Source: Sulfobacillus acidophilus DSM 10332 (GTDB taxonomy: Bacteria; Bacillota; Sulfobacillia; Sulfobacillales; Sulfobacillaceae). Taken from it: DNA of 64,000 nt. Position 1 is the first letter of the stretch. Each line of letters begins with the position of its first letter. The notes beneath the pieces are model-generated. The model was not told where the DNA came from and did not search any database. It was given only the letters and a program-made list of their open reading frames with translations. The position numbers and the translations under genes are program-made. The stretch covers positions 992,001-1,056,000 of the forward strand of contig CP003179.1 of assembly GCA_000237975.1 (NCBI GenBank), read 5' to 3'. This document shows positions 15,562 through 64,000 of this stretch, piece after piece.

Positions 15562-15656
15562 TGGAGACGGTCCCTGGGAATCGAACCCAGCCTCGTGACC
15601 GATCACGAGACACCCGGTTTGCAGCCGAGGGAGCACGCCAGTGCCCGTTGACCGTC
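15562..15656 (-). tRNA. tRNA-Cys(GCA) with a selenocysteine-tRNA-like body
   Basis: 95 bases including an encoded CCA (minus strand 15656 to 15562). Acceptor GACGGTC pairs with GACCGTC, discriminator U, then CCA. The D-stem has six pairs (GGGCAC/GTGCTC) around a four-base loop TGGC. Anticodon stem CTCGG/CCGGG encloses CTGCAAA, anticodon GCA. A long variable arm has a seven-pair stem (CTCGTGA/TCACGAG). T-arm is CTGGG/CCCAG with loop TTCGATT, plus one extra G between T-stem and acceptor. A long arm with a 6/4 D-arm is the tRNA-Sec plan, yet the anticodon and U73 are cysteine identity elements. Not a serine or leucine tRNA. Confidence 0.85.
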
Positions 15657-15665
15657 ATCGATTGG

Positions 15666-15671
15666 ATTATA
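15666..15671 (-). promoter_or_regulatory. -10 element of the Sec-like tRNA-Cys gene
   Basis: On the minus strand TATAAT lies nine bases before the tRNA 5' end, a fitting distance for initiation just before the mature end. The matching -35 region (TTAATA-like) is weak. Confidence 0.5.
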
Positions 15672-15842
15672 CGAAAAACGTATAATGATATTAATCGATA
15701 TGCAGTTAACGCATGACACATATAATCGAACACGCCATTGATGATCGCACGCCACGGCCTAGCCTCCCAAACTCTCAGGAGGTGGCGAAATCACCGCTGC
15801 AGCAGAATTGAAGGGGCAGCGTGAACAGTCGATAAAATTTTT

Positions 15843-18727: not shown

Positions 18728-19137
18728 TAGACCTCCTTTGGCGTTCACGCGGTAATGAGTTAAAAGACTCTCCCGTAGAGGGGGATTCCGGGGGTCGTTC
18801 AGCCGTTTTGTGTGGTCAGGGATGCGCAGTCAATCTATCAAGTCGTGTAATGTATGGCAATAGATCTAACATATATTTGGAGTAAAGGATAAAAAATGAT
18901 TGACAGATAAGTTATTGGATTGTGGTTTGTTGGCAAGTTCCTTGACCACTCAAACTATTGCCGGAGAGCTTGAACGATGGGTTAATGCAGAATACAAAAA
19001 GGGGACCGGGGGATTGTCGGATTACACCATGGTATTTCTCGTTTTGGTCGGGTATCGTAAGACCAACGTCGCAAGGATGTTATGTTTTAAGTTAGAGCTT
19101 ACATCCAAGCGATGCGGGCAAATTGAATAATCTAAAG
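18728..19137. other. Divergent intergenic region before NCS1 and guanidine operons
   Basis: About 410 bases, more A/T-rich than its surroundings. It holds the NCS1 ribosome binding site and must hold promoters for both directions, but I could not find a convincing -35/-10 pair. A 76-codon open frame at 18900-19130 has no ribosome binding site or family resemblance and is not accepted as a gene. Confidence 0.4.
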
Positions 19138-19226
19138 TTTGCTAGGGTTCCGCTAGATACTAGGTCTGGTCCAAGAGCAAACGGCTTTCACAAAGCCACA
19201 CGGAAGGATAAAAGCCTGGGAGATCT
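19138..19226 (+). ncRNA. Guanidine-I riboswitch (ykkC-type) aptamer
   Basis: The three conserved blocks of the class are present in order: CTAGGGTTCCGC (19142-19153), CTGGTCCAAGAGC (19166-19178, consensus CUGGUCCGAGAGC) and CACGGAAGGATAAAAGCC followed by TGGGAGA (19199-19223). A short GGCTTTCACAAAGCC hairpin sits between the second and third. It lies 60 bases before the first gene of a guanidine-degrading operon, and its 3' strand overlaps the 5' arm of a terminator, the usual ON-switch design: guanidine binding should prevent termination. Confidence 0.93.
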
Positions 19227-63812: not shown

Positions 63813-64000
63813 TCTGGGATCGAGTGAGCACGACGATCGCGGGCAACAGTCCGAAAGGCGTTGTCTGAGGAAAGTCCGAGCTGCATAGAGCAGGGTGCTG
63901 GATAACGTCCAGTGGGGGCGACCCTAAGGAAAGTGCCACAGAAAACAAACCGCCTCGCTGAGCGAGGTAAGGATGAAACGGTGCGGTAAGAGCGCACCAG
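63813..64000 (+). ncRNA. rnpB: RNase P RNA (class A), 3' end cut by window edge
   Basis: Conserved blocks in order: GAGGAAAGTCCGAGCT (P4/CR-I, 63868-63883), GCAGGGTGCTGGATAACG, GGCGACCC, GGAAAGTGCCACAGAAAAC, AAACCGCC and AAGGATGAAACGGTGCGGTA followed by AGAGCGCACCAG at the window end. These are the universal bacterial type A core. It matures tRNA 5' ends with RnpA. The 5' end is placed from the promoter; the 3' half including the second P4 strand lies outside. Confidence 0.96.

Follow-up and report, generated by a model that had tools for sequence, protein, structure and literature searches.

The locus examined here raises the question of whether a gene that has the body of a selenocysteine tRNA (tRNA-Sec) can be a cysteine tRNA (tRNA-Cys) and, if it is, what such a tRNA would do in its host. 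The gene lies in a 64,000-nucleotide stretch of DNA from Sulfobacillus acidophilus DSM 10332, which was analysed as a whole and is referred to as the window.

A cysteine tRNA on a tRNA-Sec body

The initial annotation described the gene as a cysteine tRNA built on a tRNA-Sec body. This description was borne out by an ARAGORN call of tRNA-Cys(gca) at 15562-15656 on the minus strand, by the Rfam score for tRNA-Sec and by the U at position 73. The gene and its anticodon are placed as follows.

15562-15656, minus strand: selC*-type tRNA-Cys(GCA), 95 nt (ARAGORN, Rfam, alignment and folding)
15620-15622, minus strand: anticodon GCA, reading TGC on the plus strand (tRNA position 35 in the ARAGORN output)

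The Rfam tRNA-Sec model (RF01852) passed its cut-off in the covariance check, scoring 56.2 bits against a gathering score of 47, and was the best family retained at this position. A structural read-out of the 95-nt body recovered the arms that had been claimed for it, namely a six-pair D-stem closed by a four-base loop (GGGCAC-UGGC-GUGCUC) and a seven-pair variable stem (CUCGUGA-UCGG-UCACGAG). The acceptor consists of 7 bp (GACGGUC/GACCGUC) and the T-stem of 5 bp (CUGGG/CCCAG) without a bulge. The anticodon loop CUGCAAA is, as had been noticed, one base removed from the CUUCAAA loop of the tRNA-Sec encoded in the same genome, and the reported cysteine features (GCA, U73 and a genome-encoded CCA) are all present. 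The predicted fold is a cloverleaf with a minimum free energy of -44.4 kcal/mol (z -2.5 versus shuffled sequences). The gene is intact and its fold is non-random. An ordinary Ser/Leu type II tRNA was ruled out by U73, the GCA anticodon, the 6-bp D-stem and the choice of tRNA-Sec by Rfam.

The gene in its host genome

A search of the genome (3,557,831 bases, including one contig of 3,472,898 bases) recovered each of the genes that had been suggested for this purpose: a normal tRNA-Cys as well as selA, selB and selD. The ordinary tRNA-Cys(gca) has 75 nt, the tRNA-Sec (anticodon tca in the gene, UCA in the RNA) scores 73 bits, and selA, selB, selD and cysS are each present in one copy. Because the ordinary tRNA-Cys, the tRNA-Sec(UCA), selA, selB, selD and a single cysS share the genome with it, the window gene is an extra, second tRNA-Cys. 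That it might be the only tRNA-Cys was ruled out by the ordinary gene; likewise, exactly one canonical tRNA-Cys was found in 15 of the 15 carriers of the class. Dedicated selB* and cysS* genes of the delta-proteobacterial kind were also rejected, as the genome has a single selB and a single cysS.

Two comparisons within the genome describe the mixed character of the tRNA. Position 73 is G in the five tRNA-Ser and in tRNA-Sec and U in both the window tRNA and the normal tRNA-Cys. Over the whole molecule, the window tRNA is identical to the genome's tRNA-Sec in 64 of 99 aligned columns versus 51 of 100 for tRNA-Cys. As a separate observation, selD (L122; G000:C1:1401608-1402540) contains one in-frame TGA, and SelD of the host is therefore probably itself a selenoprotein.

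Relatives and conservation

Orthologues of the gene were found in 14 other genomes of the class Sulfobacillia. Relatives outside the class were sought with a DNA pattern run on one genome per species, which returned similar GCA tRNAs with a long variable arm from Ammonifex, Clostridia, Solincola and Geothermincola (Actinobacteriota), Nitrospirota and one Proteobacterium. Because the pattern preset the anticodon and a Y at position 59, neither of these is independent evidence for its matches. Position 73 was left free, and all 22 aligned members that have the extended branch carry U73. When 151 genomes of the class were searched with a covariance model built on these 22 members, 15 carriers scored 82-98 bits; the next best matches reached at most 71.8 bits, and those that the Rfam model also found were tRNA-Sec.

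Compensatory change was strong among the 10 Sulfobacillia copies that were aligned over 97 columns. The proportion of cells able to pair was 93.3% versus 83.1% in shuffled alignments, and 13 pairs had changed on both sides versus 6.8 after shuffling; none of 500 shuffles reached either value.

Several other unusual tRNAs were observed alongside these relatives. A related long-arm tRNA-Cys(GCA) with a 7/5 branch, also matched by the DNA pattern, occurs in Acidobacteriota, Planctomycetota and Poribacteria (L129, L149, L151, L159, L160, L163 and L164) and combines a tRNA-Sec-like D-arm with the lack of an encoded CCA. A tRNA-Sec-like match at L110:2997-3097 (G042), for which ARAGORN made no call, has the loop CCGCAAA (C33 for U33) and U73 and is possibly another odd Cys-type tRNA. 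Long-arm tRNAs with a GCA anticodon were also present on three virus-associated IMG/VR contigs (L245, L246 and L249). These contigs were rejected as members of the class since the tRNAs that ARAGORN calls there have Leu/Ser-type bodies unrelated to selC*.

Acceptor branch and tertiary core

The initial annotation noted one unpaired G on the 3' side between the T-stem and the acceptor, giving 13 bases on one strand against 12 on the other, and compared the gene with minor cysteine tRNAs that have bulged 8/4-like branches. The unpaired G is real, and it faces A8 within a 13-layer helix rather than bulging from it. This A8-G mismatch forms the eighth layer, between the 7 acceptor pairs and the 5-bp T-stem. 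The same arrangement of 7 standard acceptor pairs, an A8-G layer and a 5-bp T-stem characterizes the Sulfobacillus clade, in which one genome (G035) has U opposite C. The eighth layer is Watson-Crick (A-U or G-C) in S. thermotolerans, Solincola, Geothermincola, Ammonifex, Clostridia and the Proteobacterium, completing an eight-layer acceptor; the members from Ammonifex and Clostridia contain T-stem mismatches. The branch is better described as the 8/5 geometry of tRNA-Sec, with 13 layers of which the eighth is mismatched, than as 12 bases opposing 13; where the window tRNA has the unpaired G, orthologues pair A8 with U. Most native tRNA-Sec of the compared genomes also have a non-Watson-Crick eighth layer, with G opposite A.

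A contact between D-loop position 16 and T-loop position 59 is special to tRNA-Sec, being C-C in E. coli and U-U in eukaryotes, according to the excerpted text of a review (PMC7609411). Among the 22 aligned members, U-U was found in 18 and C-C in three, with no mismatch in the 21 that could be scored; one member has an unusual D-loop and could not be scored, and the equation of alignment column 17 with position 16 is our own assignment. The three C-C members come from different lineages. This covariation supports a predicted tRNA-Sec-type tertiary core, beyond a look-alike cloverleaf.

Comparison with known tRNAs

The statement in the initial annotation that selC-like minor cysteine tRNAs had been described was correct. 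The kind has been known since 2017 as the selC* tRNA-Cys (Mukai et al. 2017, Nucleic Acids Res.), which, in the excerpted review text (PMC7609411), has a tRNA-Sec-like body, U73 and a GCA (or UCA) anticodon and ranges over Firmicutes, Nitrospirae, Proteobacteria and Thermodesulfobacteria. The same text gives its fold as 8/4, in which A51a is left unpaired in a T-stem of 4 bp, and names no known role for it beyond the delta-proteobacterial forms that are accompanied by selB*/cysS*. The window tRNA shares with this class, as so described, the tRNA-Sec-like body, GCA, U73 and coexistence with a normal tRNA-Cys. It differs in lacking the 8/4 branch and the A51a bulge, having instead a 5-bp T-stem and an eighth acceptor layer, which its 8/5 relatives (S. 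thermotolerans, Solincola and others) close with a Watson-Crick pair; its genome, unlike the delta-proteobacterial carriers, has neither selB* nor cysS*. Measured against that description, the window tRNA is a variant of the selC* class that lies outside the 8/4 fold. The 8/5 geometry, the 16-59 covariation and a selenium-related gene neighbourhood were not found in the excerpted text of the review.

Comparison with three further groups places the variant more closely. With bacterial tRNA-Sec (RF01852) it shares the 8/5 branch of 13 layers, the 6-bp D-stem, the long variable arm and the 16-59 contact; tRNA-Sec, however, carries UCA (rarely others) and G73 where the window tRNA carries GCA and U73, and the genome owns a separate tRNA-Sec. 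The GCA anticodon, CUGCAAA loop, U73 and CCA are common to the window tRNA and canonical tRNA-Cys, whereas the 75-nt length, ordinary D-arm, short variable loop and 7/5 branch of the latter are not. Allo-tRNAs resemble it in their tRNA-Sec-like extended branch and arms but have a 12-bp branch (8/4 or 9/3) and serine identity, in contrast to the 8/5 branch and U73 found here.

Upstream elements

Three elements precede the gene.

15666-15694, minus strand: sigma-70-like promoter TTAATA-17-TATAAT (10 of 12 matches)
15699-15715, minus strand: palindrome CATGC-N7-GCATA, candidate regulator site (from locus comparison)
15666-15686, either strand: 21-bp perfect palindrome ATTATACG-AAAAA-CGTATAAT overlapping the -10 element

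The TATAAT element ends 9 nt ahead of the 5' end of the mature tRNA. Seven genomes of the A8-G clade carry a CATGC-N7-GCATG palindrome or a variant of it at a distance of 58-61 nt ahead of the tRNA, and two of them have a mutation in one half. The spacing is kept while the flanks differ; the palindrome is missing from the loci of the S. thermotolerans group. The T-N11-A geometry of the site is of a kind that a LysR-type protein could recognize, which we offer as a lead. A wider CATGC-N7-GCATR regulon was considered and rejected: among the sites listed from five genomes, almost all fall within predicted open reading frames and no target is common to them, and two recurring sites upstream of tRNA-Sec fall within a coding gene. 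The site looks specific to the tRNA gene on this comparison. The second palindrome, ATTATACG-N5-CGTATAAT, has an expected count of 0.19 in the window when up to 3 mismatches are allowed, and it was absent from those loci of the relatives that were fetched.

Association with selenium metabolism

SelB scored over the cut-off in 25 of 30 carriers when all forms of the tRNA are counted. Among carriers of the extended branch, only one incomplete 1.7-Mb metagenome-assembled genome was without it; SelB was likewise not over the cut-off in G076 and G078 (7/5 form) and in G080, all of them draft assemblies. About a quarter of bacteria use selenocysteine (Sec) (PMC9312934). Within the class, every one of the 15 carriers uses Sec, as judged in G004 from selB alone. 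This association has a Fisher p of about 0.001, uncorrected for descent; within the family p is 0.02. The co-occurrence with SelB could merely mirror descent from a duplicated selC.

Outside Sulfobacillia, the gene often adjoins selenium-related genes. yedE lies beside it at four loci (L134, L137, L152 and L162) and yedF at three (L152, L158 and L164), with a partial yedF at L162. At L158 the tRNA gene stands between a LysR_Sec_metab regulator and yedF, and at L164 it is near a cysteine desulfurase/SclA-like gene and a Se/S-carrier protein. Comparative genomics has linked these families to the use of selenium (PMC5322559). Such neighbours occur at 6 of 17 loci in five phyla, the families having been noticed post hoc and not predicted. 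No selenium gene adjoins the window's own copy, whose flanking genes encode an amino acid permease, a formamidase and a protein that resembles membrane transporters but matches no Pfam family; neighbours vary between the genera of Sulfobacillia, and no LysR_Sec_metab regulator scored over the cut-off in the Sulfobacillia genomes tested. The selenium link, comprising selB in nearly every 8/5 carrier and frequent adjacency to yedE, yedF and the LysR regulator outside Sulfobacillia, is possibly new.

Two further RNA features were observed in the window. A guanidine-I riboswitch (87 bits) is located at 19131-19224, upstream of DUF1989 and urea-carboxylase-like genes, and the 5' part of a class A RNase P RNA occupies 63821-64000, where the window end cuts the gene.

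Proposed function

We consider it probable that the window gene specifies a functional second cysteine tRNA, a CysRS-charged isoacceptor tied to selenium metabolism. By its identity elements, U73 and GCA, it would be charged with cysteine by the single CysRS, and it would then decode UGC and UGU. Both the co-occurrence with SelB and the adjacency to yedE, yedF and the LysR gene in other phyla suggest that it may serve selenium-using cells, and its expression may follow selenium status. Its 13-layer acceptor/T branch would most likely make the Cys-tRNA acceptable to SelB or to another factor that binds tRNA-Sec. Delivery by SelB itself is the least certain step, a tentative one that we hold to be doubtful rather than likely. 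GCA cannot read UGA; therefore, SelB delivery would have no obvious use unless SECIS-bearing UGC or UGU sites exist.

Another explanation is that of a plain minor isoacceptor that CysRS charges and EF-Tu carries to UGC and UGU codons, its tRNA-Sec body being a relic of a selC duplicate. U73, GCA and the reading of the same codons by the ordinary tRNA-Cys fit it well, as do the greater overall identity to tRNA-Sec and the broken eighth layer of one clade, which looks as though it were dispensable. The maintenance of a tRNA-Sec-specific core by compensatory change across phyla argues against a relic, and the link to SelB and yedE/yedF would be unexpected, so that this explanation seems to us somewhat unlikely. 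Rather unlikely, too, is the most specific form of the selenium-linked reading, in which the tRNA belongs to a selenium regulon and SelB, depending on how much selenium is available, inserts cysteine at chosen UGC or UGU codons, such as those in Cys-containing versions of selenoproteins.

The initial annotation had also allowed for a regulatory RNA. A tRNA-like regulator or decoy that binds SelB, SelA or CysRS outside decoding would accord with a tRNA-Sec likeness sufficient for the Rfam cut-off and with the candidate regulated promoter; it is nevertheless improbable, given that the conserved anticodon loop, U73 discriminator and CCA are kept together with the fold, as in a decoding tRNA. The insertion of Sec at UGY codons, with SerRS and SelA making Sec-tRNA and SelB inserting it at SECIS-bearing UGC or UGU, could draw on the long variable arm (SerRS), the 6-bp D-stem (SelA), the 8/5 branch (SelB) and the presence of selA, selB and selD, but is very improbable beside a normal tRNA-Sec(UCA) and with U73 fixed in the 8/5 carriers against G73 in every tRNA-Ser and tRNA-Sec of the genome. 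Because U73 is fixed, charging with Ser or Sec is unlikely.

A practical consequence concerns annotation, in that a match to the tRNA-Sec covariance model can be a cysteine tRNA. Selection has maintained the 8/5 GCA form as an additional tRNA-Cys in Sec users from several phyla. A first clue to its role that can be tested comes from this distribution and from the adjacent genes in other phyla, which suggest the transport, trafficking and regulation of selenium. If SelB does deliver it, these organisms would possess a second, SelB-dependent route for cysteine.
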